This document shows, piece by piece, positions 6,722 to 52,874 of a DNA stretch of 64,000 nucleotides. Positions within the stretch are counted from its first letter, which is position 1. The number at the start of each line of letters is the position of its first letter. This DNA comes from Pythium myriotylum (taxonomy: Eukaryota; Oomycota; Peronosporomycetes; Pythiales; Pythiaceae). Made by a program: the position numbers and the translations under genes. Under the pieces are notes generated by a model. That model made no database searches. It was given only the letters and a program-made list of their open reading frames with translations, and was not told where the DNA came from. The stretch spans positions 560,501 to 624,500 of the forward strand of contig JALJCQ010000030.1 of the NCBI GenBank assembly GCA_023091665.1, read 5' to 3'.

Positions 6722-6942
6722 GTTGCCGAGACGTACTGGAGCTCCTCACAATACTGGAGCTCTTCACCTGTTACAAACAGGTTCCTAACAGCTACCCTTT
6801 CCCGCTTTCCTCGGTGTTCCGTGGTGATTATGACCTCCTCGGGTTTCGAAGAAGTGTATCCATCGGGCCCCTCGCTGGACGCGCTCTCGCGCACTCCCCG
6901 ACTCGCCTGCAAGCCCCCAGACCGTCGACCCGACTGCCCAGA

Positions 6943-7944
6943 ATGCCGTGGTTCAACCTCGTCGCGATGCCGCAGTGGTATCTCGAAGGACTCAAGTACT
7001 ACGGCTTCGAAGGCTACAACAATGCGCGCAAGAGCTGGGCCGATCCGGACATGGCGCGCCACGCCGACCTCTCGGGCAAGCACTACATCGTCACGGGCTC
7101 CAACTCGGGGCTCGGCTTCGCGGCCGCCGAGGAGCTCGCCAAGCGCAAGGCCACGGTGCACATGGTCTGCCGCAGCGAGGCGCGCGCGAACGAGGCCCGC
7201 GACAAGATCGTCGAGGCCGCCAAGACCGCCGGCGTCGAGAACCCGGACGTGCAGGTGCATCTCGCTGACTTTGGCTCGCCCGAGAGCGTGCGCGCGTTCG
7301 GCGACAAGTTCGCCAAGGAGCACGGTGTGCTCCACGCGCTGATCAACAACGCCGGCGCGCTGTTTAAAGAAGAGACGCGCACGCCCTCGGGCGTCGAGCT
7401 TTCGATGGCCGTCGCGCTCAACGGCTCGTTCCTGCTCACGGGACTCATGCTGCCGCTGCTCAAGCGCGCGCCCAAGGGCCGCGTGATCAATGTCTCGTCG
7501 GGCGGGCAGTACCTCGTGGGCCTCGACGCGCTGGATCTCGCTGGGAAGGCTCGCACGGGCTCGGTGTACGACGGCGCGTGTGCGTATTCGTACGCCAAGC
7601 GCGCACAGGTGGAGCTGACCAAGCACTGGGCCAAGCATCCGGCGGGCGAAGGCGTGATCTTCCACTCGATGCACCCTGGCTGGGCCACGACGCCCGGCGT
7701 GACGACGTCGCTGGACGACTTCTCGGTCAAGCACGCCCACATGATGCGCACTCAGGAGCAAGGAGCCGACACGGTCGTGTGGCTCGCGGTCGCTGACGAG
7801 CCGGCGACCAAGAACGGGCTCTTCTGGCTCGACCGCGAGGAGGTGCGCACGGATATGCGCCTGGCGTTCACCAAGGCGAGCGACAAGGACCGCGAGACGC
7901 TCTGGCACGAGTGCGAGAAGCTCTGCGGCTGGAAGCCCGAGTGA
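6943..7944 (+). CDS. DHRS12-like short-chain dehydrogenase/reductase
   Basis: Intronless 333-residue classical-type SDR. Seen: cofactor motif TGSNSGLG, NNAG, the active-site serine stretch INVSSGGQY and the catalytic YSYAK. The N-terminal lead (GLKYYGFEGYNNARKSW) resembles the front of DHRS12-type proteins, which is why I place it there. CRSE after the second beta strand suggests NADP preference, by inference. The ATG at 6943 is preferred: the frame is open further upstream, but those residues are Arg/Ser/Pro-rich and overlap the divergent promoter. The substrate is unknown; steroid, retinoid and lipid aldehyde substrates are all possible in this family. Confidence 0.82.
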   Translation: MPWFNLVAMPQWYLEGLKYYGFEGYNNARKSWADPDMARHADLSGKHYIVTGSNSGLGFAAAEELAKRKATVHMVCRSEARANEARDKIVEAAKTAGVENPDVQVHLADFGSPESVRAFGDKFAKEHGVLHALINNAGALFKEETRTPSGVELSMAVALNGSFLLTGLMLPLLKRAPKGRVINVSSGGQYLVGLDALDLAGKARTGSVYDGACAYSYAKRAQVELTKHWAKHPAGEGVIFHSMHPGWATTPGVTTSLDDFSVKHAHMMRTQEQGADTVVWLAVADEPATKNGLFWLDREEVRTDMRLAFTKASDKDRETLWHECEKLCGWKPE

Positions 7945-25200: not shown

Positions 25201-25503
25201 ACCAAAGAGTTCTACGAGGCGATTCTGCGGCAAAAACACCAGGAGGAGCAGGCCGAAATCTTCCACCGCGCCAACCGTCGGCAGAATTCGACCATGACGC
25301 TGCACTTGGACGCCAAGCGCACGCGGCTCGAGTTCATGAAGCGCCAGGACCCGACGGCCTTTGCCGCTTACGAGCGTGAGCAGGGACGTCGCATCGAGGA
25401 CCCACCGCCCGTCCACGAAGAGGAACTAAGCACGATCGCTCAGAAAGAGAAGGAGCTGCGAGGTCGCTTGAGTACGATCCAGATCGCACCGCATGCCAAG
25501 TAG
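22209..25503 (+). CDS. CFAP69: CFAP69-like armadillo-repeat axonemal protein
   Basis: Four exons (22209-22408, 22469-22589, 22656-22806, 22871-25503) give about 1034 residues of mostly helical, armadillo-like sequence. Landmarks that fit CFAP69 in order: LRNECLMVLLLLSR, LQTTALAVLTSIAPHLLDH, a YSSWR segment before TASQLLLRLYAQEE, and the C-terminal KLKPKIHAVLENLSF followed by a GEMWQNV stretch. CFAP69 is a component of the C1b projection of the ciliary central apparatus in animals and algae, so this gene would serve zoospore flagella. Joins are in phase; the third donor is GTCAGC, weaker than the others. The call rests on remembered family features rather than an alignment. Only 8 bases separate its stop from that of the convergent REX1B gene. 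Confidence 0.75.
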
Positions 25504-34686: not shown

Positions 34687-35975
34687 ATGGGGAACAAGCC
34701 CACGACCGCAAGCGGCGGCAGCCGCGAGAACAAGAACCTCAACCAAGCGATCCCGGACCAGTACGAGACGTTCGGTGCGTCGCGCTCGATGTGGTCTAAC
34801 CGCGCAGCTGGTCGTCTAACCGTGCAGTTGTCACCTTCGTTAGCCCAACTGCAGGAGGCGCTTCGGTAGGAAACGACATGGACCCAAGGCGACGCCAAAT
34901 GCTCTAACTGTATCGGCGCGCTCTAGTGCTCAAGGCCTCGAGTCCTCGAACCTCATCTTAGGAGTGCGTTCAAACGCCATGGTGTGGCTGGGTTGCACAT
35001 ATAGGGTCTAACCTGTGCGTCTGATGGTTAGATTGACTACACCAAGTCTAATACCGTGCGTGGCCTAACCAGTATTCGACGACATCTGTTGACTAACCTG
35101 TATGACCTAACCTAGTGGACAGGCAGGCACTCGTTCAATGGCAAGTGTCTCCACGACGTGGACCCAACGAACGCCGTGCTGAACCCGTACCAGGTCGGTC
35201 TCACTTGCCTGTAGCTGCTCACGAGCTCCTCGAGCCAATACCCTTCTAACTCGTTGTGTTATCACAGAGCGTCATTGCGATCGTTGGGCGTACGCTTGAG
35301 CCGTTCGACGACGACAACTTGATACCGGCCTTTGGCTTTGGTGACTCGACGACGGGCGACAAGGCAGTCTTCCCGTTCAACCAGAATGGTAAGCCATGCC
35401 ATGGCTTTGACGAAGTTCTCCGGCGCTACGGCGAGATCACGCCCAAGCTCGCGCTCGCGGGGCCGACCAACTTCGCGCCGATCATCTACGAAGCCATCCG
35501 CCAAGTCAAGGCCACCCACTCGTACCACATCCTCGTGATCATCGCAGACGGCCAGGTCACCAACGAGAAAGAGACAGCTGCGGCTATTGTCGAGGCCTCC
35601 AAGCACGCACTATGTACGAGCTGAGAAATATCGTAGCTTCATGAGAAGGTGGCGGCTAACGGATACGTGGTTCGTAGCAATCGTTGTGGTCGGCGTGGGC
35701 GACGGGCCGTGGGAGCTGATGGAGCACTACGATGACACGCTACCGGCGCGGCGATTCGATAACTTCCAGTTTGTTGACTTCAACCGCGTGATGAAGCTGA
35801 ATCGGATCAAGCCCGACGTTGGATTCGCTACAGCTGCGATGATGGAGATTCCAGGTACTGTACTGTACTTTCTGAAACCTTTTGTCGCTGCGGTGGCGGA
35901 AACTGGACTTACTGACTGTTCTCTCGACAACCAGAGCAATTCAAAATCATCCGCAAGCTTGGTTATCTGAACTAG
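34687..35975 (+). CDS. Copine/RGLG-type vWA-domain protein, eight exons with microexons
   Basis: Exons 34687-34774, 34844-34865 (22 bases), 34927-34963, 35032-35055 (24 bases), 35116-35193, 35268-35613, 35678-35854 and 35935-35975 join into 270 residues. The protein begins MGNKP, a likely N-myristoylation signal, and then is almost entirely a copine-type vWA domain: [77 protein letters not shown] and [12 protein letters not shown]. The MIDAS-like residues D-x-T-x-S (DYTKS) are present. Plant RGLG proteins add a RING E3 domain after this; none is found here, nor copine C2 domains. Role: probably membrane-linked protein binding. The introns carry CTAAC branch-point motifs. A large 3' part is duplicated at 38081-38770. 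Confidence 0.88.
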
Positions 35976-36154
35976 CAGCAGTGCACAGGTCACGTTTCTT
36001 TATCAAAGATGGAATGAATGGTGTCCAGGCTTTATCCAAATCTTCTCTCGTACAGCTTGCGTGAAGGTGGCCAGGGAAGTGTAGTTGCCACACGTAGGGT
36101 CAGCATTGCTCCAAGTCCTGACAGGCCTCCAGCTGTGCTGTGACCATCGTTGTC
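35464..36154 (+). repeat. Segmental duplication, source copy
   Basis: This segment, from within exon 6 of the vWA gene to ~180 bases past its stop, recurs almost unchanged at 38081-38770 in the same orientation. Introns and non-coding flank are copied along with exons, so the copy is DNA-based. Confidence 0.9.
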
Positions 36155-36800
36155 CACTGCACGCAGTGTCACGCCACCTTTTGTTTTGCACGCTGCAGTG
36201 CATGACGACGGTGCGGGTGTGCAAAACAAAAGGTGGCGTGAGGAAGGCACCTCGGGTCGTCAATCTTGTAGTCTCACGAGCGACATGGTCTATGCTGAAA
36301 CTGTCTCGGGAGTACTTTCACTTGGTTTGCCGGGTCGCAAAAGTCTGTCCTTGGCCACGGCTGGTACCACAAAGCGTATGTTGTTGCTTTCAGGACAATG
36401 AAACCTACGATAACAGTCTCACGGGGCCAGTATCGCAGACGAAATGCAAGTAAATGGCATGGTACCTCTTTCCCAACTCCATGCCAAGATTGACGAGGCG
36501 TTGATACCTCCTCTCAAACAACAACTTGACGTCTCTCGATGGATCTACAGCTTGCATGCGTGAATGGTAGGCATTCTGTTGCCCGAGGGCGTGATCGTTG
36601 ACGAGGGAGCGACCTACAGAGTCTCCACGGGTTCGTGGAAGATGTAATACTCGATGTCCAGTATTACCAACCATAGCTCATCGCGTTCGTCGGCTTTGCG
36701 TTCACCGTTTCGCGCAACTTCAACATCCTCGCTTTTGTTTGATGGTGGTAACCCTCGGTTTCACACTCATAGCATACCACCACGGCTGATTTGAACAGTC
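36155..36800 (+). pseudogene. Decayed LRR-kinase remnant, copy 1
   Basis: Pieces align by eye to the 43424-46176 LRR-kinase gene: the APRVV-type N-terminal exon (36248-36330), the next exon with its GC donor (36412-36450), a LTSLD-type LRR piece (~36515-36545) and then a jump into the kinase part (~36665-36730, VRL-FIGF-like). Most LRR exons, the transmembrane segment and much of the kinase are missing, and frames are broken. The same internal junction occurs in the copy at 51050-52090, so both stem from one already defective ancestor. A palindrome (36170-36240) sits in its first exon. Confidence 0.65.
36170..36240. repeat. Palindrome F1 (22-bp arms, 27-base loop)
   Basis: Perfect arms at 36170-36191 and 36219-36240 start CACGCCACC and end GGTGGCGTG. 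The loop holds an inverted copy (36195-36213) of the sequence at 36142-36160. The same structure recurs at 51114-51184. Confidence 0.9.
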
Positions 36801-37015
36801 CCAACAACTCCAACTTCCTCTCGGAAACCGGACATTTTGGCACACGCCAATAGTGTATTCGAGCGTTTTATTTTGGTAAGATACTCAAAGTTTCGAGTTG
36901 ACGCGCCGAATCGGAACGTGACGCGCGCATCATGCTGCAGCGGCTGCATCTTCGACCATGTGGTATCGTTCCAACCGTCTAACAACGGCACGCCATCTCT
37001 TTATCACACCATTGC

Positions 37016-37873
37016 TCAGAATTTGATGCGCCTGCCCGGAGTTCGGATCATCGTACGCTTCGTGGCACACTTGTATACTTGCGTGTTGAAGATATCGGGT
37101 GGTATTGGTCGCAACGCAGCGTGGTTTCTCAAGAAACTCTTACACAAGGTGTAAAAGCGTGCAGGCCAGGCGACCACCGTGACGATGAGATGGTCCGGAA
37201 GGTAGTATCCGTGTCTCCCAGTCGTTGATACGAGCGTGAGCTCCTCGATGTACGTAGGCAAAAACAGAGCTCGTCGATAACTGAAGCGCATGTTATTCGA
37301 AAGCAGCTGCTCCAGTTGGTAGCCGCAGTCTCCCTTGTGTGCTGATAGTCTTCCGATCTTGGGTGGTGTGTTCTTCGTCGGAATGCGTCGGCGCTTGCGG
37401 TATGGCTCGTTACGATACACATACTTGAGAAAGCGTAGAATAAGCTCCGTCAGTGAGTGGGCCACCTCATGCAGCCCTTTCACAAGCAGCAAAAACGTAG
37501 CTTTGTTTGTGTAGTCTTGATCGGTTGCCGGCCGATCAATCAAGATGCTCGTATCCAGTGTAATCCCGCGCGTTTCGACTTCGTACTGACCAAATTCGTC
37601 AACCAGTCCGGCACCATCGATGGTGATTGTCCGCCATTCGGCAGGGACAGGATGCGCAGTTGTCCACGCCATCCATTGATCGCGCGTATCGGCTTCTGTC
37701 CACTGGAATTGAAGCGCCACAGCGAACGCACCGCAGAGATCGAAGAACAAGTCGGCAAAGTCTGCCGAATTGAGAGCCGCCTCGATCATGTCTAGCGCTT
37801 GGTCAAAGACACCTGGCAGCGCAGACACGGCATGCGTGGGCCGAACGACCGCGAATGGCATGTTGGGCAACAT
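37016..37873 (-). CDS. Orphan protein with an HExxH zinc-site motif
   Basis: About 285 residues from the ATG at 37873 (a second at 37861); the frame is open and compositionally protein-like. I do not recognise the family. The centre reads LLLVKGLHEVAHSLTELILR, a helix with HEVAH (HExxH), the zinc site of zincin metallopeptidases; downstream GDCGYQLEQL offers a possible third ligand Glu. There is no signal peptide or membrane helix. Upstream, another frame (about 38060-37900 minus: PGEEYFNLVTKLGVDLVKV) looks coding and shifts into this frame near 37890, so the gene may be 5'-truncated or frameshifted, with the break close to the duplicated vWA fragment. A metallopeptidase role is inferred only. 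Confidence 0.5.
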   Translation of the reverse strand: MLPNMPFAVVRPTHAVSALPGVFDQALDMIEAALNSADFADLFFDLCGAFAVALQFQWTEADTRDQWMAWTTAHPVPAEWRTITIDGAGLVDEFGQYEVETRGITLDTSILIDRPATDQDYTNKATFLLLVKGLHEVAHSLTELILRFLKYVYRNEPYRKRRRIPTKNTPPKIGRLSAHKGDCGYQLEQLLSNNMRFSYRRALFLPTYIEELTLVSTTGRHGYYLPDHLIVTVVAWPARFYTLCKSFLRNHAALRPIPPDIFNTQVYKCATKRTMIRTPGRRIKF

Positions 37874-38080
37874 GCCGAGCGAGAAAGTGTGTGACAAAGT
37901 TCCGACGAATCGCTCGCTCGATTCGGATTGGCTGAAATATAGGTCACTTTCACGAGGTCCACGCCGAGCTTAGTGACCAAGTTGAAGTACTCTTCTCCCG
38001 GAGGCTGACGCGGCGGGAATCTCCCGTTCTGTCTGTTGATTGGCTGCTTGCTGAGGGAGGATATGGTTCGGGCATATTGG

Positions 38081-38770
38081 CGACCAACTTTGCGTCGATC
38101 ATCTACGAAGCCATCCGCCAAGTCAAGGCCACCCACTCGTACACATCCTCGTGATCATCGCAGACGGCCAGGTCACCAACGAGAAAGAGACAGCTGCGGC
38201 TATTGTCGAGGCCTCCAAGCACGCACTATGTACGAGCTGAGAAATATCGTAGCTTCATGAGAAGGTGGCGGCTAACGGATACGTGGTTCGTAGCAATCGT
38301 TGTGGTCGGCGTGGGCGACGGGCCGTGGGAGCTGATGGAGCACTACGATGACACGCTACCGGCGCGGCGATTCGATAACTTCTAGTTTGTTGACTTCAAC
38401 CGCGTGATGAAGCTGAATCGGATCAAGCCCGACGTTGGATTCGCTACAGCTGCGATGATGGAGATTCCAGGTACTGTACTGTACTTTCTGAAACCTTTTG
38501 TCGCTGCGGTGGCGGAAACTGGACTTACTGACTGTTCTCTCGACAACCAGAGCAATTCAAAATCATCCGCAAGCTTGGTTATCTGAACTAGCAGCAGTGC
38601 ACAGGTCACGTTTCTTTATCAAAGATGGAATGAATGGTGTCCAGGCTTTATCCAAATCTTCTCTCGTACAGCTTGCGTGAAGGTGGCCAGGGAAGTGTAG
38701 TTGCCACACGTAGGGTCAGCATTGCTCCAAGTCCTGACAGGCCTCCAGCTGTGCTGTGACCATCGTTGTC
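38081..38770 (+). pseudogene. Duplicated 3' part of the vWA gene, disabled
   Basis: Nearly identical to 35464-36154, including introns and 3' flank. Two lesions are visible: loss of one C in the string CGTACCACATCC (near 38141), which shifts the frame, and CAG to TAG in the stretch for DNFQF (near 38383). The 5' exons are absent. Sequence matches again stop sharply at GTTGTC (38765-38770). High identity in non-coding parts means the duplication is recent. Confidence 0.9.
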
Positions 38771-38793
38771 TGTTGATATTGATCAATAATCTC

Positions 38794-38960
38794 GCAGATT
38801 CCAGGCACTTTATGAGACCTTTCTTTCGGCGACGAATTGATCTGACTGTTTGCTCAACGCAGAGCAATTCAAAATCATTCGGAAGCTTGGTTGCCTCAAT
38901 TAGCAAAGTGCCCAAGCGGTTTGCTGATCTATGATGAATGGTATTTTGGATTTATTCGCA
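38794..38960 (+). pseudogene. Second, older remnant of the vWA gene 3' end
   Basis: The last intron, last exon (AGCAATTCAAAATCATTCGG) and 3' flank of the vWA gene are recognisable but with many substitutions. It directly follows the recent copy, giving two tandem remnants of different age. Confidence 0.65.
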
Positions 38961-38970
38961 TAATTTTTGC

Positions 38971-41954
38971 TCACACTTTCCGCAGCTCGTTCACCAGCTC
39001 GATGAACGTTGGCCGGCCCACGGGATAGTAATCCAGACAACGAACAACAAGATCGCGTAGGCGTCGAGGACTCATTGCCGTCATTTTGGGCTTCAGCTTG
39101 CCAGCACTCACCAGTAGCGCAATCTGTGTGCTGGCCATCGAAGCCTCGGAAGATGATGCATTCTCAGCAGCATATGGATGCGAACAACGATCCATTTCTA
39201 CCAACAACACGCCAAACGAGTACACGTCAGCCTTCTCGCTGTACCGCTCACCGCGCAAAATCTCCGGCGCAATCCACGCAAGCGTGCCGATCTCTCCGGT
39301 CATTGTCGTCGAACTAGATGGCACCGCGCGGCTGGTGCCAAAGTCGCTGAGTTTGGCATTGCTTTCCTCACCTAACAAGACATTGCGTGCCTTGAGATCT
39401 CGATGAATGATTGGAGGTTGAAATGAGTGCAGATACACCATCGCTTGGGCAACGTCAATGGCAATTGCTCTTTTCGGCTTGAGTTTTGGCGAGTATTCAG
39501 TCCATTGTGATGGATGCGATTGAGGGCCCGCATCACGGAGTGCTGTATAGAGATCACCTCCAGCCATGTACTCCATAATGACCGTCATATCACGTAGACT
39601 GTTGTACGAGATACCGATAAACTCGACAATTTGCGGGTGCTGCAGCTTTGCGGAGAGCCGAATCTCATCCACAAAGCCACCCAGAATAGTGGCGTCTCTC
39701 GCTAACTCTGGAAGTAGCTGCTTTGCCGCGACATATTGGCCTCTGTATCGCGCAAGATGCACTACGCCATTTCCACCGCGACTTAACACCTGAAGAACCG
39801 AAACCTCGCTGTTGTCGATGCGTAGCATCAAGAGGTCGCTGTCGTTCAAGGGATCGTTGCTGGAAAGTCTACCTGATGTAGTCTTTGCCGTGTTGGCTTC
39901 CGAGGGCGCCCCCCTAGCGAGCTCAAAGCCGGGCGATCCATTGGCACCTCGTTGTTGCTTGTTTCCACGTCTCACGAATATCCAAATGATACCGCACCCT
40001 ATAACGCAGGCGGCACTTATCAAGACCATGATCAGTGTCGAGTGGTCTCTCGTGTCGTTTGCCGACCCACTTGCATTTCCCGAGGGAGATTGTGCCGGAA
40101 AATGCTGATCAGATGAGTTTGACTGATCGAGGGGCGCGCTGCCCGCATTCTCGGTTCGTGAAGGCTCAGGGGTAATACTCCATTCAAATCTGCTCGGAAA
40201 TGTATCAAATGTTTTAGATATTTGAAGAGCGCTTGCGGGTTGACGCATCACATACCCTGTTGTGTCAAGCGAGCCACTCTGGACCTGGTCCGTGCCGTTC
40301 TTTGGGTTCATTGGGGGACTGGACGATGAAGTTTCGTCGGGCGAAGGTGTGGAGTCTTTGATACTCGGCGAATTTGAGGGTGCAGGCGTGGGTGAGTTGG
40401 TTTCCGTGCTGATAGTCGTGTCTAAACCACCTCCACGGACATATTTTTGTTGGAATCGTTCATCTACAATGCGGCATCCACGCATGGGTTTAGTCGTGTG
40501 TGGACGGATCAGCCGCACGTGTTAGTGTGAAAGCCTCACCGCTGATAACGCAGGCGGGAATGCCATTAGATGGCAGCAGAACTCGGGTGGCAGTCGTATC
40601 GTTGCACTTCGGCTGATTGACCTTTAGTTTGGGGAAGGTCATGGCTTGAAGTGTAGGAAGATCCGACCTACACACTTCGAACACTGAGATTGCATTTAAA
40701 TCGAGTGATCTGTGCGGTTTGGTTCGTTTAGAGATGCATCAAAGATGATCCATAGCAGTGGAGGACTCACAGTCTCTTGAGGTTTGAAGAAAACCGAACA
40801 CCAGTAATCGAGGTCAGCTGGCAACCGATACAAGAGCTTTCGAAGGGTCAAAGTAAATCAGCCTCGTTTGACTCTCTGCCCATGAGCTTATAGGGAACTC
40901 ACAACTCGGAGAGTTTGTCACCCCAAATGATTCCTTTCAGAGATCCGATAACATTGCTGGACATGTCGCTGTTATGCTCACAGTCCATCAGAATAAATCC
41001 TCATTCCTATGGATTCAAAATATTTTGCCGTATACTTACAGGCTGTCAAGTTGGGATGGCACCTCGAAGTTGAGGCTTGAGAACTTGTTTTCGGATAGGG
41101 ACCTATTATAATAGTATGGCTTTGGAATTTGACGAGTTTGGTGCATGCAAATCGAGTGTCACTCACAGCGACTTAACACTGCTGGGCAGTGCGACATCCG
41201 AGACACTGGCGATGCGGTTCCCGCTGAGCGACCTACCACTCCAACACAAAACATTAGTCTGTCATAAAGTACGTCATTCATACTCACTCTTTGTACTCAC
41301 AAGGACATAAGACCATCCTGGATTTGACCAGGCAGTATCCTTTCGAGCTGATTTGAGCTAAGGTATCTGTCCACGTTTCAAGATAAGTCCAACGCCCAGC
41401 TTCGGAGACCTGAAGACGTCAAGCCGTACAGAATTTGAAGAGACTTCGGGAATGCGAAGCCATCCAGGGACGAGATTTTGTTATCATTGAGTGACCTGCC
41501 GAGAATATCATCAGTGCGTTCACGTTCTTTTCAAAAAGAAAATTCGAGACCCACAGCAAAGAAATGGAGTTTCCCTTTGCGAAGTTTCCACTAGTGATGC
41601 GGTTCCCAGAGAGTATCCTTGGGTAGGTATCAGCAGCATGTTGGAATAGGTATCAGCAGCATGTTAGAAGTGGGCTCCGATGGCTTTGCACTCATACTGC
41701 ACTGACAGATTCTCAACGTCTGGGACGCTCTCAACTTGCTGAACCCCAGCATCTCTAATCTCGAGACTTCCAGGAGACGAGGGCGTGAACTCTTTCACGG
41801 TGCAGTCCGGGCTGAGCACAATCGCATTCGTCGGAGTATTCGGCGAGACCAGCAAAGTCACGACGGACGGCGCCTCCTTGCCCGTGACATCGCACACACG
41901 AGCAGCCACGTGCGGTGCGAGGAGATAAATTACGAGGCTCCACGCAAATCGCAT
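38971..41954 (-). CDS. LRR receptor-like TKL kinase with complete active site
   Basis: Ten exons: 41954-41707, 41617-41555, 41495-41430, 41366-41301, 41232-41167, 41102-41040, 40968-40903, 40836-40771, 40709-40540 and 40463-38971; about 788 residues. Order: signal peptide (MRFAWSLVIYLLAPHVAARV), a domain with CDVTGKEAPSVVTL, seven LRR units of 21-22 residues each on its own exon, a Cys-containing linker ending CVIS, a Ser/Thr/Pro stalk, one transmembrane helix (TLIMVLISAACVIGCGIIW), then a TKL kinase. Kinase residues are intact: VAAKQ lysine, HRDLKARN, DFGTSR, APE. It should sense an extracellular ligand and signal inside. All introns between LRR exons are phase 2. It is divergent from the 43424 paralogue. 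Confidence 0.87.
41624..41669. repeat. Two tandem 23-base units in the first intron of the kinase gene
   Basis: The unit TAGGTATCAGCAGCATGTTGG plus two bases occurs twice in a row, the second copy with one or two changes. Confidence 0.7.
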
Positions 41955-42264
41955 GAGTGTCTTGGCTACAAGAAGTGAACTGTGGGGAGCGCGCTTGGCC
42001 ACACAAGCGACAATCCAGGAATGATACATGTACGACAACAACGCAAGAATGATACGGTTCAATTTTATTTGTTCCTACAAGTTATGTAATCACAAAATGC
42101 AAAACACGTAACTTCTTGCTTTCAAATTTATTATTAATGCACAATAAATTAATTTGTATAGTTTAGATGCGAGAGAGGCTCCCATCGATTCCAGGGATAA
42201 TCGACAACGAACATTAGGATATGGCGGCAACGGTCGGCTTCGCCACTGGTCACCGAGCGACGTT

Positions 42265-42341
42265 GCAGAAAGTTGTGCGTAACAGAGCCGAGTAGGCACC
42301 GACTCGGTGCCTACTCGGCTCTGTTACGCACAACTTTCTGC
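42265..42341. repeat. Palindrome A (38-bp perfect arms, 1-base spacer)
   Basis: Arms 42265-42302 and 42304-42341 are perfectly complementary with a single C between them. An RNA copy would form an uninterrupted 38-bp hairpin. Confidence 0.95.
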
Positions 42342-42522
42342 CTGTTGATTGCATTGGGCACGGAAGCCACACAGTATTCCTTCTGTGAGATACATGTATG
42401 AGTCGGTGAATATTTGGCCCGGATCCAACTCTCTTCGAAGTGACACCTACAATCCACTACAGTGTAGATGCAACGGCGGGCAGAGACGTGTCAACCACGC
42501 CAAGACTCTACACTATTGGATT

Positions 42523-42590
42523 TTACGTCGAGCAATGCTGTTGACAAGTATCCTATGATAGATTCCTGTCAACAGCATTGCTCGAAGTAA
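42523..42590. repeat. Palindrome B (24-bp arms, 20-base loop)
   Basis: Arms 42523-42546 and 42567-42590 pair with one mismatch; the inner 18 bp are perfect (CGAGCAATGCTGTTGACA and its complement). Confidence 0.93.
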
Positions 42591-42874
42591 TATCCTCGGC
42601 TTTCACTAGTTCTGAGCAACTCAGCTAACGCTACTGCGCGAGTTTGAGCGTGGAAGCCCTAAGCAGCATGGCCCTCTCCACGAATTCCTTGGTCTTATCG
42701 ACCGTTATTTCCGGCAGCTTACTTGAAGAGGTCTTTGCTACTGCAGACTTCCTGTGGAATGAGATCAGAGGGGCGTTCTTACAATGTTCTCCACAGCGAA
42801 TCATGTTGTCGGCGACAAGCTTGTATGAACTGAAGTTGTATGATGACTTCGTTGACAGTCCGCTTATCGACAGA

Positions 42875-42938
42875 AAGCTCTTGTTTTTCGGTTTCTTGAA
42901 CTGTTTGAACAGTTGGAAAAACCGAAAAACAAGAGCTT
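42875..42938. repeat. Palindrome C (32-base arms, no real loop)
   Basis: The outer 20 bp are perfect (42875-42894 with 42919-42938, AAGCTCTTGTTTTTCGGTTT). The inner part continues on the same axis with an AACTGTT/AACAGTT pairing and a few mismatches. Confidence 0.92.
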
Positions 42939-43116
42939 GAGTACTGAAGTGGATGGGGATTGTTACATCCCTGGGATACGAGCAGAAACATTGGAGCGAA
43001 TAATTCTACAAGGATGAACCAGAGCCATGTAACTACTATACCAATCACCGCACTGCATGCCCACTCGATCCCAGCCGTTCTGCCTCGTCCCGACGATCTC
43101 ACGATCAGAGAGCAGT

Positions 43117-43170
43117 TTTTAAAACACTCCTCCAACGTTAGCCCTCCCAACGTAGGAGGAGTGTTTAAAA
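43117..43170. repeat. Palindrome D (22-23-base arms, 9-base loop)
   Basis: Arms 43117-43139 and 43149-43170 differ by one indel in the A run and one substitution; the core is ACACTCCTCC and its complement. Confidence 0.9.
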
Positions 43171-43423
43171 TCACAAGGCAGGGCACTTTAGCAAAGTGAC
43201 TCCAATTGCCTTGATAAACCAGAATTTTGAATCAGTTGCAAAACCATTACCCTCTTCCACCTATCGTTTGGGTGACTGTGGGCGCTTGATCTGACTATCC
43301 CATAAAAAAATCTCACCCCCAGACCTTCCATCAATCCTATCGAACATAGCCGGACCAATGTATCATTTGGGTTGGAAGAGAGGTGGTTCCGCCAAAACTC
43401 AATTGTCACCGAGACCGATAGGA

Positions 43424-46176
43424 ATGCTTGGAATGCTAACCGCCTTCCTTCTCCTGCTGGCGCCGTCGTCGTACGCTGCCATCTGCGAGACAATCGGCAT
43501 AGAAGCACCTCGGGTCGTCACCCTCGTAGTATCGTCCAAGAACGAGTCTGAAGCTTGGGTGGTCAGACCCAACTGCTCTTTCGAGGTGGTTCCCGTTGAA
43601 AATAGCTCCGGAATGCTCTCGCTCAGCTTGAACTTGCGGGGAATCGAGCGTGTTGAGAGCTATCCCCGTGTTCAAAAACTGTCGGTGAGGGTCACAGAGA
43701 TCAATGCTTAGCTAAAGCTGATGAGAAAACGTGTGTTCAGCCTTTTAGGAGGCAATTATATCTCGGACAGCGATCTCACTGGGCCCAATACTACAGATGA
43801 GATGCAAGTAAATGTCATTCTAACTCTTCACCAACTCCACGCGAAGACTGACGAAGTATTCGCATCTCTCTAGCGATCTGACCAAGAATAACTTGACATC
43901 TCTCGAAGGACTTCGATTTCCGACATCTCTGCGGATTCTGTAGGCTCTTCGCAGCACAGATTCATCTACCTAGAACTGCCTGGTCACAAGCATCGTTTTC
44001 TGCTGTGTATCATCCAGGGGTCTGTCTTTGAACCAGTTTACGCGAACGAGTGACATTGCGTTGCCACCGGGACTTACAGTCTTGTCCGTGTAATGGACCA
44101 TTTGTAATCGACCACGGCGAATCCTGAACGTGATTATTATATCCTCACCAGGCGGCTTAGGAATGGTCTTTTTGCGGACGTCAAGTTCAAGCTCCCACCG
44201 CTGCTGCAAGAATTGTGAGGCTTTGGATTGGGACATAGCTTCGTTGACTTACGCCAACAGCTAACATTATGGATTACGGTCAGAGAGTTATCCTACGGCG
44301 CAGTTTCGTCCTTACAAGGCCTTCAATGGAATGAAGCAATAACTAGGCTGTGAGATGGTGCTGCAACATCACCAACTTCGCCACGAGAATGACAATCTCT
44401 TCCCCAACAGATCATGTGCCCAGTGCCCGATTCAGTCAATCACGGGTGTACGCTTCCCTCCAAGCCTAAAGTATCTGTAGGTCATCGCTTGGTACCGAAA
44501 CTCGAGTTCAGGTGCGTCGCTAACCGTTTATGGCAGGGAAGTAGACTTCGAGAGGCTCACAACTCTAGAGATATGCGAGTCGGACCTGGAGACGATTCAA
44601 GAGATGTCCCTCAGTACTTTGCAGCCTAGCCAGATTCGTTGTGAGGACCCCATGGCGACACGAGTCCTTGCGCGAAAATCCCAGTTCCCAGTGTGTGTGA
44701 TCAGTGGTACGCCCCCCACTTAGGTCAGAAAAAAGGACTCGAAAAACTAACCAGTTGTGTTGTAGACGCCAGATTCAAGGAAAAGTACGGCGGAAACTTT
44801 ACCTCGGCCGTCGATATGTCGATTAGTGGGAGTGATGCAGATGAGAATCCGCAAGTTTCTCCCGTCGTGAAAAAACCTTTACCGACACCAGAAGGCACAA
44901 TTGTTATCGTCAATACCATATCGCCATCACCAACACCGCGAACTGTGAGGTAAGAGGAACCCCAGCTTTCGGCCCAAGTGGGATTACCAAAGACCTGACG
45001 ACAACCAATGCAATCAGCTACGAATCGGATCTTGTCACTCTGCCAAACCAGTCCTCTCTTCCCACTCCAGTTGCAGTTAGAAGTCTTAAGCCCAGCTCTC
45101 CTCAGCCGACCACGTCATCTCCTTTCTTGCGTGAGGAAACGGGACCAGGCGAAGAGCCTGGACAAAACGCTTCGTCAAACACTGCGGTTATCGTCACGCT
45201 AGGCTGCATTGCTGCTATCGCTCTCGTGGGTTTCGTACTAGTGCGCCAACGCAAGCGCCCAAAGGTGTCAAATGTCAGTCACGCATCCTTGCTCACATCG
45301 ACGGACGAAACGGGACTCGCGGACCTGCCATTGTTCGCCAAAGATGTCGTGGGCGAAGATCTCACGCCGTTTCGTTTGATAGCAAGCGACATCACCGATG
45401 TTCACACCCAAGAAAGAGATGATGGTACTACTCTGAAGCTCGCAACCTTGAATGGCAGGATTGTCGTCATCCGAGGAGTTCATCGTGGACGAGAGAGCGA
45501 CCATGAGAGCCTCCAATCGTTTGTCCAAGACCTTCGACTCGCGGTACAGCTTGATCACCCCCGACTCGTCGAGTTCATCGGCTTCACATTGACGCTTCCA
45601 CGCGACTTCAACGCCGTAGTCGCTTTTATGACCGGTGGAGACCTACGTTGTGCCCTCCACGATCCCGATTTAATCCCACAACGGCGTGATTGGTTTGAAC
45701 TTTCCCACAAACTCAAGCCCAAACTCGAGATTGCGATGGATGTGGTGTTGGCAATGACTTACTTGCACTCTTTCCAGCCTCAGATCGTCCACGGCAAGCT
45801 GAGCACTCGCAAGGTTCTCTTAGATGAATGCGGTGATGCCAAACTGAGTACGTTTGGCATTGCTCAGTGGGCGGCTCGTGACTCCACGATCATTGGAATG
45901 ATCCACGAGCCACTCACGATTGCCCCTGAAGTGCTAAGAGGTGAGCAGCATAATGACCGCGCTGACGTCTATGCGTTCGGACTTCTGCTAGTTGAGATGA
46001 ACCAAGGACATTCCCCGCAGTGCCACATGAATCTTCCTCGTGAACTCCAAACGATTGTGGCATCATGTATGAACGAAAATCCAGGCGAACGACCAAGCTT
46101 CATGCAGCTCCACTACGAAATGTCCATGCTTCGTTCAGGTATCAAAAGGGAAGACCAGAAGCGGGGTACTTCGTAG
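43424..46176 (+). CDS. LRR receptor with predicted pseudokinase domain
   Basis: Eight exons: 43424-43680, 43741-43803, 43874-43939, 44284-44349, 44411-44476, 44537-44706, 44766-44949, 45018-46176; about 676 residues. Signal peptide (MLGMLTAFLLLLAPSSYAA), ICETIGIEAPRVVTL domain, four single-exon LRRs (fewer than in the paralogue), Cys linker ending CVIS, Thr/Ser/Pro stalk, transmembrane helix (AVIVTLGCIAAIALVGFVLV), kinase-fold domain. Key catalytic residues are replaced: VAIK-type lysine is Arg (VVIRG), HRDLKARN is HGKLSTRK and DFG is TFG, while APEVLRGE and DVYAFG remain. Thus it is probably inactive but folded. Intron 2 appears to use a GC donor (GCAAGT at 43804). Intron 3 is 344 bases, unlike the ~60 of its neighbours. 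Confidence 0.82.
43970..44236 (-). other. Open frame of 88 codons inside intron 3, opposite strand
   Basis: An ATG-initiated frame (MSQSKASQFLQQRW...) encodes a charged, soluble-looking peptide with RKKTIPKPPGEDIIITFRIR. It fills most of the enlarged intron of the pseudokinase gene. I recognise no family. It may be a fragment of an inserted gene or chance. Confidence 0.3.
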
Positions 46177-46289
46177 CGTAGAGTTGGTCCATTTCTCAGA
46201 GAATCCTCGATTATCCTAGCGCCAAACTTCTTTTCATTACTGTGCCTCTGCCAGTGTTAGCGCTTTCTCTGTTATCGACGAAAGCTTCC

Positions 46290-46470
46290 GTGGTGGTTGA
46301 TGGGCACTATGATGATGGAACTGAACCGGATCAAGCCCGACGTTGGATTTGATATACAGCAGCCGCGGTGATGGAGATTCCAGGCTTTTGCCGTAAGCAA
46401 CAACTTAATTTTCTGACTGTTCTATCGACTCAGAGCAATTCAAGATCATCCGCACCTCAACTACTAAGTC
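46290..46470 (+). pseudogene. Third remnant of the vWA gene 3' end
   Basis: Pieces matching exon 7 (GATCAAGCCCGACGTTGGAT, GGAGATTCCAGG) and exon 8 (AGAGCAATTCAAGATCATCC) of the 34687-35975 gene occur in order with deletions and substitutions. It lies just downstream of the pseudokinase gene, which suggests vWA and LRR-kinase genes were duplicated together. Confidence 0.75.
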
Positions 46471-46491
46471 ATTCTCGCTCGCAACTTGAGT

Positions 46492-46554
46492 GAAGAAGGT
46501 GGCCAAGAGAGTACAGTTGTTCCGAACAACTGTACTCTCTTGGTCACCTTCTTC
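46492..46554. repeat. Palindrome E (30-bp arms, 3-base loop)
   Basis: Arms 46492-46521 and 46525-46554 pair with one mismatch around CCG. The left arm resembles the 3' flank of the vWA gene (GTGAAGGTGGCCAGGGAAGT at 36062 onward), so the right arm appears to be the added inverted copy. Confidence 0.92.
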
Positions 46555-46712
46555 CGACCGCAAGCCTACCATGTCGCGTGTTTCTCCGAGCTCTTACACC
46601 AAGGTCGGAAGAATCTTCTGCAGGTCAACCTAGGATCAGGTCTAGTATACGGTCATACTAGGTTTTTTCACCATGGTCATGCGTAGATCATGAGGTTTTT
46701 TATGGTGGTCAG

Positions 46713-48863
46713 ATGACTGGTCACATTTCGTTTGACAACCGTGGATCACAACCATTGATTGACAACCACGATCACGAATACAACTACAACACAGTCTTGC
46801 CATCCTCACTTTCCAAATCCCGAGAAGGTTGTCCCAAGTACCGAAGTCAGCTTCCACTGCCACTACCAATTCAATGCCATCCCAATTGCGTCTACGTGCT
46901 CTTCGTAGCATGTAGCATCCAACAACGTTCTCGAACGGCGTCGGCTCGTGCTGACAATCCGTGGTATGTGTCGGTCTCTTCACCACCTCCCACGGAGGTG
47001 AATGGTTCGTCAACGATGAGTAGCCTTTGCGAAGCCGTCCCGGCGCCACCACCAACTCGTGATGATTCAAGTGCGGTTGACGTTGGAGATGACGGCGAAG
47101 CCGTTGCTCCTCGTCGTGCGCGAGTGACTAAGCGTAGCCGGCTCTCTAATCGCGAACATGACGGAGCAAGTGATCATGGAGATGACGGCCCAACTCGGCA
47201 ACCATCGTCGCAAGAAGTCGATGGAAACGAGAGTGTAAGCGATGTGAATCCACCAACCACCCATGCGGTCGTGCGTGTTGTTGAACCGGGAGAGCTCTCC
47301 GCAGCCGAACGGGAGGATACTTTAAGTCTTGGTCGACGTGCTGGAAGGACCAAGGTGTTTGTCGATGGCTATGAATTTACGCAAGCAAACAAGACTCGTG
47401 TCAAGATCACCTATCGATGCAGTTTCTACCGGAGCCAAGACTGCAAAGCTCGGCTTCACCTCCTTGCATCGACGATGGAGTACGACACTGCGAATATGAT
47501 CCCCCACACCTGCATACCACCATCTCGCATTTCCGATTGCATCGACCAAGGTGCGTCGTGTCTCGACCTTCGCCATGCAATGCAACAAGATGTCGACAAC
47601 CACGCGCTTCCAGGAAACTTGACGCCGCACCAGATTTGGATGCGTGTCAGTGAGACCCACTTGAGTGAGCGTGGTGGTAACATAGTGGTTCGCGCTTTGA
47701 CAAAGAACCAAGTCATCAAACGTGTTCACAACGTTCGTGCCAGTCACTATGGTGCAGATATGCATGGCCGCGTGGAAGTCGCCCCACTCTCGCGAGTCTT
47801 GAACTCCAACCTCAGCTTTTTCCAGTTCCACCATGTGTGGCATAACCCACACTTGAAGGGCGAGAACAAGATCGACAGAGTCATTGGGTGGGCTCATCCG
47901 ACGTTGCTTACTCTGCTGCGGTATGAGAATCTGTCGCTCTTTATCGATGCAACATTTCGCTGTGTGCCGGTGAAGTTCAAGCAATGTGTGGTGTTGATGG
48001 TCTACGACAAAGGAACCAAGTTGTATGTACCTGTGTGCTACGTGCTTGCAGCATCGAAAACTTACGATGCGTACTGGAACATCTTCCAGTACATTCGGGA
48101 CGCGTGCGGGGAGAGTATCAAGGCAGCTGAGGTTGTGTGTGATTTTGAGACGGCTCTAGTTGGTGCTGTGTCCGAATGGTTTGAGGATGCACGGGTGATC
48201 GGCTGCTTTTTTCACTTTAAACAAGCATGCCAGAGGAGGATGGTCAAGTACCGCATCCCCAAGGACGAAATCAGTGTCGCAATGGAGCAAGGTGTTTTAG
48301 ATATGCTGACAGTTGTTGATCGCGAGCAGATTTTCCCTCAAGGCGTATCGTGGGTCAAGGCGACGATTCGACAGCGGTGCCAAGAGATTGGGATCGACTA
48401 CTCAAAGGCAAAATGGCGTGAGTTCTGGGCATACTTTCAACGAACCTGGATCCAACTGCATCCTCCTACAGTGTGGAACATTCACGGCATCCACCGGAGT
48501 ATCGTGGCTCGCACCAACAACCCGCTTGAGCGATTTAATCGCGAGCTTAATGCTGCGTTCGCAACACCACATCCCTCGGTGCCTCGCTTTGTCAACACAG
48601 TTGAGGCTATTTCGCGTGACTACGTTCGCCTACGTGAGCAGATTAGCCGTGGGCAAGCAGAGGCCCCGGCTCGACAGCGTTCCATCACTCTCCCAACTGC
48701 CGTTCGACTTCCAGACACAGTGCCTGGAGATGACCAGTCTAGCGATGAAGAAGCTGATCTAGGTTACGAGTACCAAAGCAGTTCGACTGACGACGACGCA
48801 GAAGAGGACATGTCCATGCTCGGTGGTGATGGTGTTGATGATGATTATGATAATGTAGTGTAG
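46713..48863 (+). mobile_element. MULE-type transposase gene with FLYWCH-like zinc finger
   Basis: An uninterrupted frame of 716 codons from the ATG at 46713; an ATG at 47016 (615 residues) is the more natural start because the sequence before it is Pro/Ser-rich and unlike the family. Seen: FLYWCH-like zinc module (ITYRCSFYRSQDCKARLHLL ... HTC), then the MULE catalytic domain: first Asp in SLFIDATFRC, second in VVCDFETALVGAV, the GCFFHFKQACQRR motif, and the Glu in NNPLERFNRELN. The tail is acidic. The frame looks intact, so the transposase may be functional. I could not find convincing terminal inverted repeats or a 9-11-bp target duplication; element limits are therefore open. Confidence 0.82.
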
Positions 48864-48977
48864 TTGACGTAAAATGGAGTGGCTCAACCGAGGCTAATCT
48901 TTCAATGCCATGTTCTTTACTCCCAATTGAGTACGTTCGCAGCGTCGGGTTGATCAACGATCGTTTGATGTGCTGTA

Positions 48978-49002
48978 CCGCAAACCACGGAAAGATGAAC
49001 CA
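48978..49002 (+). repeat. Left terminal inverted repeat of the pogo-like element
   Basis: Twenty-five bases starting CCGCAAACC, an exact reverse complement of 50674-50698. One further base pairs inside. Confidence 0.95.
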
Positions 49003-49293
49003 CACGGAAAGATGCGCCACCTGTCAAAAGTGATTGATTCTGCGCAGGTTTTCTTCATGGTGAATCAGATCTGTCCCACCCACTCTTGAAAATCATCTCT
49101 CAAGAAATTACAGGTTTTCGAGTCACTGTACTTCACCCCTGGAATTCACGGTACTCTCTGCAACAATGAAACATTCCCTGTAATACCTTCGGTAGTCCCC
49201 ACCTCTTCAAATATTGAGAAGTCAAAAGTAACATTAGGGAAGATATGGTAATTAATGCATTACCTATCGCTGACCAGAATGTGGGCGTCATTC

Positions 49294-50535
49294 TTACACT
49301 ATGGCCTCCAGGACGGCAGTGTTCTCGTTTTGGGGTTTAGGTCCAAAAGGCAAAAATGGGCCAGACGCGACGAACGCGCTGCGGACGACATCCGCTGAGA
49401 TCTCAGCGACCGCTGTTAGCGTGCGAACGATCATGTCACGTCGCCTTTCGAACGCTGAGAGAGGGGGCGTCACTCCAGTGTACATCTCGACGTAGAGACG
49501 TCTGAGACGGGCCTTGAAAGGGCCCATGATGCCCACGTCTAGAGGCTGACAGACACTGGTCGTGCCACCTGGAACGTAGACAGTAAATGTACCCATGGCA
49601 GCTAGGGTCTCTCTCACCGATGGCAACTGGTGAATCTTCAGACTGTCGAGAATGAGGACAGTGGGGCCTGTCACCTCATACTTCCAGGCTCGCTCGATCC
49701 AGTCGAGCATGACCTCTTCGTCAAACCATGCGTTTTTCTGCACTGCATACGTCGCATTCTCCCCGTCGCAATACCCCTCCACTTCATCTTGGACGTCGCC
49801 ACCCGGTTTTCCCTTGAAGACGAAGTGGGGTGCGAGAAAACGACCATCAGCGCACGCTGTTAGAGCGACAGTGCAGCGGTAACCCCCTTTCCCAGCGAGC
49901 TTGCATGGCACGCGTTTGACGCCCTTGAAATCGACGGTCGTTCGAGCACCGAGATTGCAGTAGACACTTGTCTGGTCCATGTTGTAGAGCACGAACGGTG
50001 GAGGCGTCCCAGTCGCAGAATCGAGGAAATGATCGATAAGAATAGCACTCACTTCAAGAGCAAACGCCTCCTTATATTTCATTAACTCATCCTTTGACTT
50101 CCGCCCCGAGTGACTGATGCGACGAATTGACAGCCCACTACGCTGCATGAAGCGGTCGCACCACGCCAGACGAGCTCCCTCTGTCTTGTCCGCAAGGAAA
50201 CCTGGGAGTAGGCGCAGGCACTCGAGCACGATACCCTCCCTCGTCACAGGCAGCTCCTCGCGTCTCTGGTCCTTGACCCAGGTGACGAGAGCATCCTCTA
50301 CGACGTGGCTTTCGGAGCGGCGGCCGCTTCCTCCCACCGTGAGCTTGCTCGCGCGTTTGTTCTCGCATGCAGAGCGGATGCGCTCCGCTCTGCGCTCCCA
50401 CGAGCGATGCGTGGATCGATTGATGCCGTTGACACGGCAAAAATCGGAGCGATTCTCGGTCGATGCAGCGAACGCATCGACCGCGCCGACTTTATTCTTG
50501 TTCGTGAAGGCCAAAGGTATGCGCTGCCTTGGCAT
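49294..50535 (-). CDS. pogo/Tigger-family DDD transposase
   Basis: A 413-residue intact protein. The N-terminus has a psq/CENP-B-like helix-turn-helix (FTNKNKVGAVDAFAAS, DFCRVNGINRSTHRSW) for binding the terminal repeats. The DDE_1 catalytic domain shows the three acidic residues in LYNMDQTSVY, VLILDSLKIHQ and SVCQPLDVGIMGPFK, with the usual PHFVFKGKPGG stretch between. It would cut and paste the surrounding element at TA sites. No stop or frameshift is present. Confidence 0.92.
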   Translation of the reverse strand: MPRQRIPLAFTNKNKVGAVDAFAASTENRSDFCRVNGINRSTHRSWERRAERIRSACENKRASKLTVGGSGRRSESHVVEDALVTWVKDQRREELPVTREGIVLECLRLLPGFLADKTEGARLAWCDRFMQRSGLSIRRISHSGRKSKDELMKYKEAFALEVSAILIDHFLDSATGTPPPFVLYNMDQTSVYCNLGARTTVDFKGVKRVPCKLAGKGGYRCTVALTACADGRFLAPHFVFKGKPGGDVQDEVEGYCDGENATYAVQKNAWFDEEVMLDWIERAWKYEVTGPTVLILDSLKIHQLPSVRETLAAMGTFTVYVPGGTTSVCQPLDVGIMGPFKARLRRLYVEMYTGVTPPLSAFERRRDMIVRTLTAVAEISADVVRSAFVASGPFLPFGPKPQNENTAVLEAIV

Positions 50536-50673
50536 CGGTTATCGTTTTGCACGTGATCGCAGTCCACCTACTTTCAGGAAAATGGATGGACCTGGTTCGC
50601 CAATCAAAATGCACAGTAAAACACGGAAAGATGCAACACCTCTCGAAACCGTTTTGTTTTTTGGTGGCATAGG

Positions 50674-50698
50674 TGGTTCATCTTTCCGTGGTTTGCGG
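50674..50698 (-). repeat. Right terminal inverted repeat of the pogo-like element
   Basis: Exact inverted copy of 48978-49002, followed by the TA target duplicate. Confidence 0.95.
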
Positions 50699-51049
50699 TA
50701 GTGACGTCGACATGGCTGCTTACGTTGTGAGTGATATGCATGTTGTGACCAATGTCTGGTTTTGGTCAGCGCTATTTTCTGCCACTGATCACGTGACCCG
50801 GCCTCGTGACCTGACCGGAAAATTGACCTGTATTAGACATAACCCCAAGGTCCTGTTCGTCCCCCAAGGTGACTACTAATTGATGTGCCATCTATGCTTC
50901 GCCTGACAAGCAAGCCCCGTAACGCAGTGTCGCACGACTTTCCTGTGCAATCATTGACCGTAACCCAATTACGGATTGGCCTGCTTTTGAGACCCAAATA
51001 AATCTGGCATCGTATTTTACGCAACCCTGGTTGTTTCCGCATACGGCCA

Positions 51050-52090
51050 GCGCTGCTCCAAGTCTTGACAAGCCTCCAGCGTCTGCTGGCACCATCGTCA
51101 TACACTGCGGTGTCACGCCACCTTTTGTTTTGCACGCTGCAGTGCATGACGACGGTGTGGGTGTGCAAAACAAAAGGTGGCGTGAGGAAGGTACCTCAGG
51201 TCGTCACTCTGCCAGTCTCACAAACGACATGGTCTATGTTGAAACTATCTCCGGAGTGTGTTCACTCGGCTTGCCGGGTCGCAAAAGTCTGTCCTTGGCC
51301 ACGGCTGATGCCAAAAAGCGCATGTTGTGGCTTTTAGGACAATCAAACCTACGACAGCAGTCTCACGGGGCCAGTATCGCAGACGAAATGCAAGTAAATG
51401 GCATGAAACCTTTCCCCCAACTCCATGCCAAGACTGACGAGGTATTGGGACCTGTCTCCAGAGACCTGACAAACAACGACTTGACGTCTCTCGAAGGATG
51501 CACAGCTTGCACACGTAAAAGGGAGGCATGATATCACCCGAGGGTTTGATCGTTGACGACGGAGCAACCAAAAGAGTCTCCATGGAAGATATAATACTCG
51601 CTATAGGGCATTACCAGCCCTAGCTTACTGTGTTCATCGGTTTCACGTTCACCGTTTCATGCAACTTCAATGCCCTCGATTTTGGTGATGACGGTGGCCT
51701 CCGCGGTGATCCTCGGATTTGAGCTCATAGCACCACTGCTGATTTGAACAGCCCCGAAAACTTTGGCTCAAACTCGAGAATTCTATGGATGGTGCTGGCG
51801 ATAAATGCTCGCATTCTTTCTTGCCCAGGCCGTCCACCTTGAGATGAGCGCTCGCACAGAGTCCTCAGATTGACTGTTGAGCGATCTACTCACAATTGGC
51901 CGAAGTGCTTAGAGACGAGCAGCACAGCGATCGCGCGAATAGGGTCTTGCAAGTCGAGATGAACCGTGGGAAATTCTCCCAAGATTTACCCTCTGAGGAC
52001 CAAACGATTGTTGCTAACTGCTGAACTGAACAAGAATGCACCCCAGCGAAATGTCCGCGCTTCGTTTAGATCCCAGGAAGGAATGACCAG
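51050..52090 (+). pseudogene. Decayed LRR-kinase remnant, copy 2
   Basis: More complete than the copy at 36155. It keeps the N-terminal exon (51085-51290, with an inserted palindrome), the second exon with GCAAGT donor (51362-51393), one LRR piece (51465-51500), then kinase pieces: FIGF-like stretch (~51632-51670), a region for APEVLRGEQHSDRA (~51895-51945) and the C-terminal part (~51955-52080). LRR exons, stalk and transmembrane segment are deleted, and stops and frameshifts abound. Closest to the 43424-46176 gene. Confidence 0.75.
51114..51184. repeat. Palindrome F2 (22-bp arms, 27-base loop)
   Basis: Arms 51114-51135 and 51163-51184 are perfect and equal to those of F1. The loop contains, at 51139-51157, an inverted copy (17 of 19 bases) of 51090-51108. 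Confidence 0.92.
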
Positions 52091-52874
52091 ATCCTGGGTA
52101 GTTGCCCAGGCAGTTTCGACTCATTTCACGGAAGTGTCCTCAACTATTAGGACGCCGAACTGCCCTCTCTCTGCCTTCTCTCTGCCTTCTCTGGCTAAAA
52201 AATTCCAGCGCTATCGCTTGTTTCGACAAGTGGTCAGTTTACTGTGACACCGACGGCTGTAGATCTGTGCATTGATTCGTGTTGTGTTGAGTCTGTTGCG
52301 GCGAAGACGACAATTACAAGCGAATGGTGATGGGGTTCGTGCCGCTCTCGACTTCCTTACTTGCATTAAAGCTCGAAACTTTCGGTGGGCAGCTCCGAGC
52401 ACTTGTCTTGAGTTACGTACATGTACTGTAAGTACTCGGGACTCACCAAGATTTGCCAGTCATTTCGAAGTGGGACCAACAGTGTCAAGACTGTCGTGAT
52501 GTCGCGTCAAGCTCGGGTTCAGACGATCTTCGTTTCCAGGGCCGGGAAGTCCAGACGAGCGAACCCATCTGGACCAGCTCTCAGTCAAGTTATCCACTCT
52601 TGGGAGGCTGCCCACTCTGTCTCGAAGCATCGCTTTCGAGCGGGTATCGGATTGCACCATACATTCCGTAGAGCTCACCACCATGTGAGTCACATGCCAT
52701 GCGCCGGAAATGGCTGGGGCTGCTGTGCACGGCCACCAGGACGATGGCAGAACCGCGCCGTCTGCGCTTCTGCAGAGTGACGACTGGCTTCATCGAAGCG
52801 GCGTGTGCTGTCGTTAGTCCGGACCCATGGATGGGTGGCCTCGGCGCGCGGAGACGCTCAGATCCCGATCGTCC

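Follow-up and report, generated by a model that had tools for sequence, protein, structure and literature searches.

Short palindromes in a kinase gene block of the oomycete Pythium myriotylum, most likely scars of local fold-back DNA synthesis

Introduction

Short inverted copies of adjacent sequence are a product of several described repair and replication systems. In yeast one end of a break folds back where it carries inverted microhomology, undergoes extension and is finally captured by the other end, yielding insertions most of which are ~5-34 bp long, and Ku70, Lig4 and Mre11 are nearly essential for such fold-back inversions, as stated in the parts of that report drawn on here (PMC11724301). 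Template switching makes perfect hairpins in one step, according to the excerpted account (PMC8794818), and polymerase theta carries out a stem-loop synthesis for which priming takes about two base pairs and which, in mammalian cells, gives inverted insertions of 3-30 bp (PMC11292364, PMC5068794, as excerpted); a figure title in one of these papers describes snap-back as a minor part of inverted templated insertions (PMC5068794). Here we describe seven near-perfect palindromes in a window of 64,000 nucleotides from Pythium myriotylum (positions 560501-624500 of the 3.36 Mb contig JALJCQ010000030.1, in a genome of 58.7 Mb and 55 contigs), which cluster in a block of kinase genes and are most likely scars left where DNA broke or a fork stalled and synthesis folded back locally (a template switch). 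A limited literature check returned, among the matches listed, no oomycete study of genomic palindromes or template switching.

Results

Palindromes were scored at 1 per match and -2 per mismatch with a loop of up to 60 bases, and 40 order-2 Markov versions of the window served as the chance baseline. All seven palindromes reported in a sequence-only reading of this DNA were recovered, with edges at most 5 bases from the coordinates given there (Table 1). The same reading gave a loop range of 0-27 bases, of which the upper bound stands and the lower does not, the measured loops being 1-27 bases with a zero-base loop in none. At a score of at least 16 the window holds exactly these seven, all inside 36.2-51.2 kb (simulated mean 0.0); at a score of at least 15 there is an eighth, 50618-50694, which is part of the end of a pogo-like element (simulated mean again 0.0). 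Palindromes 1 and 7 are paralogous, as had been claimed, with 72 of 73 aligned positions identical, so that the seven represent six independent events. The cluster lies within a lower-GC block at ~34.6-55.5 kb (GC 47-53% over 36-56 kb). Elsewhere in the window, the protein encoded at 22849-25503 has its nearest relatives in Pythium oligandrum (59%) and Pythium insidiosum (58%), which identifies the source as an oomycete.

Five genome searches covered palindromes 1 to 6 (2-5 with flanks, 1 with flanks, 6 with flanks, 2 alone and 4 alone, with only the best candidates scored), and the palindromes matched themselves and the 1/7 pair only, palindromes 3, 5 and 6 having been searched only inside longer queries; the query of palindrome 6 with flanks also matched paralogous kinase tails, in the flank and not in the palindrome. 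The earlier statement that the arms, those of the first and last palindromes apart, are mutually unrelated and not copies of one miniature inverted-repeat transposable element (MITE) is supported, and no copy family was found for those searched. Unrelated arms and no copy family among independent events are what template-switch insertions should display, and the many related copies that mark a MITE or fold-back transposon were not found. Remnants of a small mobile-element family, whether a MITE, a fold-back element or a bacterial-type palindromic element, might be suspected from the Mutator-like element (MULE)-type open reading frame (ORF) and the pogo/Tc5-like element in the region, and from palindromes 1 and 7 being two copies of one sequence; given these search results, and since the 1/7 pair lies inside a longer gene duplication, we regard this origin as very unlikely.

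The origin of palindrome 6 can be read from a relative that lacks it. Three kinase copies have homologous tails, and the copy at 38640-38740 has the left-arm stretch of palindrome 6 without a second arm. The left-arm side of the palindrome matches this paralogue with a score of 40 (0 of 2000 shuffles as good; shuffle counts below are given in the same way), and the right side, taken forward, shows no match (1650/2000). Taken by itself, the left arm reaches a score of 30 (0/2000), and the reversed right arm one of 26 (4/2000). As the left arm matches the paralogue and the right arm does so only when reversed, and less well, the left arm is old and the right arm is its new reverse copy.

At palindromes 1 and 7, which lie near the starts of degraded kinase copies, the event takes the form of an inverted copy placed between the two halves of its source, the start of a kinase gene. 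The layout at palindrome 1 is a segment A, then arm B, then A' (inverted A), then arm B'. A and A' agree at 15 of 19 positions at palindrome 1 (30/2000) and at 17 of 19 in the copy at 51 kb (1/2000). The reverse complement of B plus A' (36169-36218) aligns ungapped to the gene start at 43460-43493, which lacks the palindrome, with 24 of 34 positions identical (1/2000); the same stretch taken forward has no match to the kinase gene start (1093/2000), and the upstream stretch that includes segment A also matches it (17/2000). A second kinase gene start, at 52870-53000, scored low with the same pieces (19, 15 and 22, scores without a shuffle test). Because it is the reverse complement of B plus A' that matches the gene start, the middle of palindromes 1 and 7 appears to be an inverted copy of the A-B' junction, set between A and B'. 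One pre-existing arm accompanied by a new reverse-complement copy, the pattern that a template switch leaves, is therefore found directly at palindrome 6, and as an inverted insert at 1/7.

Palindromes 2-5 all lie inside a span of 906 bases between the divergent kinase genes at 38971-41953 and 43426. The right arm of palindrome 3 matches kinase-copy sequence at 36101-36116 at 15 of 16 positions (5/2000), and its reversed left arm does so at 14 of 16. By analogy with palindromes 1, 6 and 7, the same fold-back process may have made palindromes 2-5. Inverted chimeras are a known artefact, and chimeric fold-back reads from assembly or amplification could in principle yield structures of this kind. 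Palindromes 1 and 7, however, sit in a duplication that is ~17% diverged outside them, so that the structure is either older than the duplication or has been copied between the two places, and palindromes 3, 4, 5 and 6 have arm mismatches, which we read as changes since formation. We consider an artefact very unlikely.

The block also contains degraded kinase copies, besides the kinase ORFs and the two mobile elements listed in Table 1. The 34-35 bases just before the MULE-type frame have identical matches on two other contigs (C26 and C17), and this stretch is probably the end of the element. A direct duplication of 691 bp inside the block (35464-36154 and 38081-38770) has 99.4% identity between its copies, which indicates that the block was rearranged recently.

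Table 1. Palindromes and associated features, numbered from the first base of the window
Feature	Position	Strand	Description
Palindrome 1	36169-36241		arms 36169-36191 and 36219-36241, 23/23 paired; loop 27, containing an inverted copy of upstream 36143-36161
Palindrome 2	42265-42341		arms 38/38, perfect; loop 1; genome search returns itself only
Palindrome 3	42518-42595		29-bp arms, 2 mismatches; loop 20
Palindrome 4	42875-42938		31-bp arms, 3 mismatches; loop 2; genome search returns itself only
Palindrome 5	43118-43170		22-bp arms, 2 mismatches; loop 9
Palindrome 6	46492-46554		31-bp arms with a single mismatch; loop 1; ancestral sequence in the left arm, new copy in the right
Palindrome 7	51113-51185		23/23 paired; loop 27; paralogue of palindrome 1
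Segment A	36143-36161	+	within stretch matching start of kinase gene at 43426; inverted copy A' at 36194-36212
Paralogue, lacking the palindrome, of the left-arm side of palindrome 6 (46466-46519)	38654-38703	+	second copy inside the 99.4% duplicate 35464-36154
Kinase ORFs of the block	38971-40521, 44845-46176, 54344-55510		
Kinase gene region	43426-46176	+	kinase domain in ORF 44845-46176; start 43426 read by eye; start is the palindrome-free relative of palindrome 1
Divergent kinase gene	38971-41953	-	kinase ORF 38971-40521; 5' end 41953 read by eye
MULE/FLYWCH-type frame	46606-48863		MULE-type ORF 46662-48863
pogo/Tc5-like element	48976-50700		ends matching over 28 bp; flanked by TA on either side; carries a single unbroken DDE_1/HTH_Tnp_Tc5 frame of 414 aa

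Palindromes of this kind are also present elsewhere in the genome. A sample of 20 stretches of 10 kb (200 kb in all; 16 taken at one fixed position per contig and 4 added later) holds 9 palindromes with a score of at least 15 and 8 with a score of at least 16, the latter at 7 sites, where 0.025 would be expected. The earlier remark that nothing of this kind was noticed in the flanking gene blocks therefore holds locally, there being no palindrome at a score of at least 15 and two at a score of at least 12 in the window outside 34601-55500, but it fails genome-wide; nor is a tie to leucine-rich repeat (LRR) kinases as such borne out, with seven sites in the 200 kb sampled elsewhere. One of these sites may be of different origin: the sample stretch L019 carries a large inverted duplication at 5509-7824, in which two nearly identical frames stand head to head with a palindrome (6652-6713, 27-bp arms) between them. 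Compared with the 0.73 events expected from 7 sites per 200 kb, the six independent events of the kinase block make it ~8-fold denser (Poisson P ~1e-4), a test that is post hoc since the region was chosen for its palindromes. The enrichment is real, with that qualification, and is confounded with duplication, pseudogenes and nested transposons.

Some of the sample sites carry palindromes that abut one another. In the stretch L021 two palindromes, 7261-7295 and 7296-7328, lie directly against each other; each is centred on CAATAATTG, and the distance between the centres is 34 bases. A frame of 408 aa ends inside the second palindrome and a frame of 242 aa begins inside the first; in separate searches both frames matched one set of six paralogues, identically ordered, and for five of the six the matches of both frames report the same open-frame length, in the range 668-890 aa. 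We read these equal lengths as one unbroken frame in each of the five, and the double palindrome of L021 as breaking the gene. In L021 the stretch between the halves exceeds that of the paralogues by 25, 28, 28 and 51 bases where the brackets are close (four paralogues) and by 91 and 166 bases where they are distant (two), differences that fit an insertion of ~34 bases only roughly. The first frame has no protein relatives outside this genome at E<=0.001 among 7997 scored candidates. These centres bear on a further explanation, in which the palindromes are footprints of transposon excision that arose through fill-in of hairpinned or staggered ends, and the CAATAATTG common to both centres is an old 9-bp target duplication. 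Nine bp is the length of the MULE target duplication, the same 9 bases occupy both L021 centres, and the window holds MULE-type and pogo-type ORFs. The centres of the abutting pair in L037, on the other hand, share at most 3 bases by eye, and the palindromes of the window are single; excision footprints are in our view an improbable source.

The L037 pair consists of palindromes at 4076-4110 and 4110-4144, with scores of 17 and 15. The stretch L020 has palindromes at 4895-4931 and 4932-4960, the latter weak, followed by a third copy at 4961-4981, and the whole of 4893-4981 looks like a series of inverted copies about a single sequence, such as repeated switches during synthesis would produce. 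Abutting palindromes are thus carried clearly by two and weakly by one of the 7 sample sites, whereas among 600 random control places an abutting palindrome reached a score of at least 9 at none and a score of 8 at 5. Such pairs would be expected if both ends of one break folded back, copied their own flank and were joined.

Discussion

We propose that a single local mutation left each palindrome behind as its scar. Where DNA had broken or a fork had stalled, a 3' end would have switched onto its own strand, or onto the complementary strand beside the break, copied ~15-40 bases backwards and then been rejoined; the product would be a new inverted copy of adjacent sequence, that is, an inverted templated insertion, fold-back or short-range template switch. 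A local snap-back origin had been suggested in the sequence-only reading. It is supported by relatives at two of the six independent events (46492 and 36169/51113) and by the gene-breaking double palindrome of L021, and for the remaining palindromes it would apply by extension.

Several observations weigh against an origin by fold-back synthesis or complicate it. The ancestral state was not found for palindromes 2, 4 and 5, and for palindrome 3 it amounts to one 16-base match. Arm B' of palindrome 1, taken alone, has diverged too far for its match to the kinase gene to be significant (302/2000). The direct repeat from centre to outer edge that would serve as a junction fingerprint reaches p<=0.04 in only 3 of the 32 side tests, which covered 16 palindromes (GTTTAA at L009, 0.007; 36169, 0.02; 46492, 0.04). 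The idea that a shared direct-repeat core links the centre of every palindrome to its edge was set aside, being attractive for L009 and 46492 but not general. A loop of exactly one base occurs in 5 of the 17 palindromes with a score of at least 15 in window and sample, and a zero-base loop in 0 of 17. A one-base loop is too tight for a simple hairpin, so that priming between strands, or at a short odd or imperfect palindrome already present, must be assumed. An abutting partner was looked for at all seven window palindromes and found at none, and that of L020 is weak (score 8). Finally, a neutral scar does not predict that palindromes 1 and 7 should be identical at 72 of 73 positions when the rest of their alignment is identical at 519 of 625 (binomial P = 0.001 for the excess conservation of one arm plus loop). 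This higher conservation could come from gene conversion at the palindrome or from selection.

Selection would be expected if these were functional hairpins near kinase genes, for example small-RNA precursors, RNA switches or protein-binding palindromes, and the conservation of the 1/7 pair speaks for such a role. The six palindromes that were folded as RNA also form much stronger structures than their shuffled versions (z -7.8 to -16.4), and the genome has Piwi-domain genes, which makes hairpin small RNAs possible. Strong folding, however, is automatic for any palindrome, and similar palindromes occur in unselected sample stretches, where one breaks a gene. No Rfam family matched 35000-55600 at the gathering score, and 21-mers of the six distinct palindromes, the palindromes themselves and the 1/7 copy being excluded, had no match at <=3 mismatches on the + strand of window and sample (264 kb). 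The lack of targets is not unusual, as 13 of the 20 random segments used as controls were likewise without a match. The earlier suggestion that hairpin small RNAs silence the neighbouring kinases finds no positive evidence, and a functional role for the hairpins is an unlikely reason for their presence.

Fold-back synthesis would place these palindromes in a class of mutation that is already known, seen here in a new host. They resemble the yeast fold-back inversions in being short inverted duplications, and Ku-domain matches are present in this genome too; unlike those described in the cited parts of the yeast report, the palindromes of this wild genome are old scars, most of the clear ones have arms of 16-38 bp against a yeast majority below 14 bp, palindromes abut at two or three of the sample sites, and few of the side tests given above point to junction microhomology (PMC11724301). 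They share with the short-range template switches of apes and RNA genes the one-event reverse-complement copy of nearby sequence, which is often a perfect inverted repeat; those switches, in the portions of the reports used here, were found by comparing species, and ours come from paralogues and self-structure only (PMC7954356, PMC8794818). The likeness to the inverted templated insertions made by polymerase theta, as far as the excerpted reports describe them, lies in the inversion, and the difference in that a theta polymerase was not found here in a non-exhaustive search (PMC11292364, PMC5068794). That search found a single DNA_pol_A place, which scored 178 bits as bacterial Pol I against 91 bits as theta, and a PF21099 search of the genome gave 0 matches, its control likewise matching nowhere. 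Polymerase theta was dropped as the named enzyme because the sole family-A place found is Pol I-like.

The clustering appears to reflect a tolerance of insertions, and possibly more breakage, among kinase duplicates, pseudogenes and transposons, rather than function; fold-back insertions are perhaps favoured in a region that has been duplicated and hit by transposons. A bolder proposal, which we hold only tentatively and think rather doubtful, is that fixed fold-back insertions weigh heavily on this lineage, numbering about two thousand in the genome if the sample density of 8 per 200 kb applies throughout, and that part of them would come from two-ended repair in which both ends fold back, copy and join. 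Our confidence in the two-ended reading is set slightly lower because the third abutting site, in L020, is weak. If it is true, two-ended fold-back would break and remodel the copies in duplicated kinase clusters at a higher rate than in other regions. Fold-back insertions can break genes, as in L021, and ready-made hairpins could later be recruited as RNAs. A fold-back origin makes the hairpin cluster a readable record of DNA mending in a little-studied lineage.

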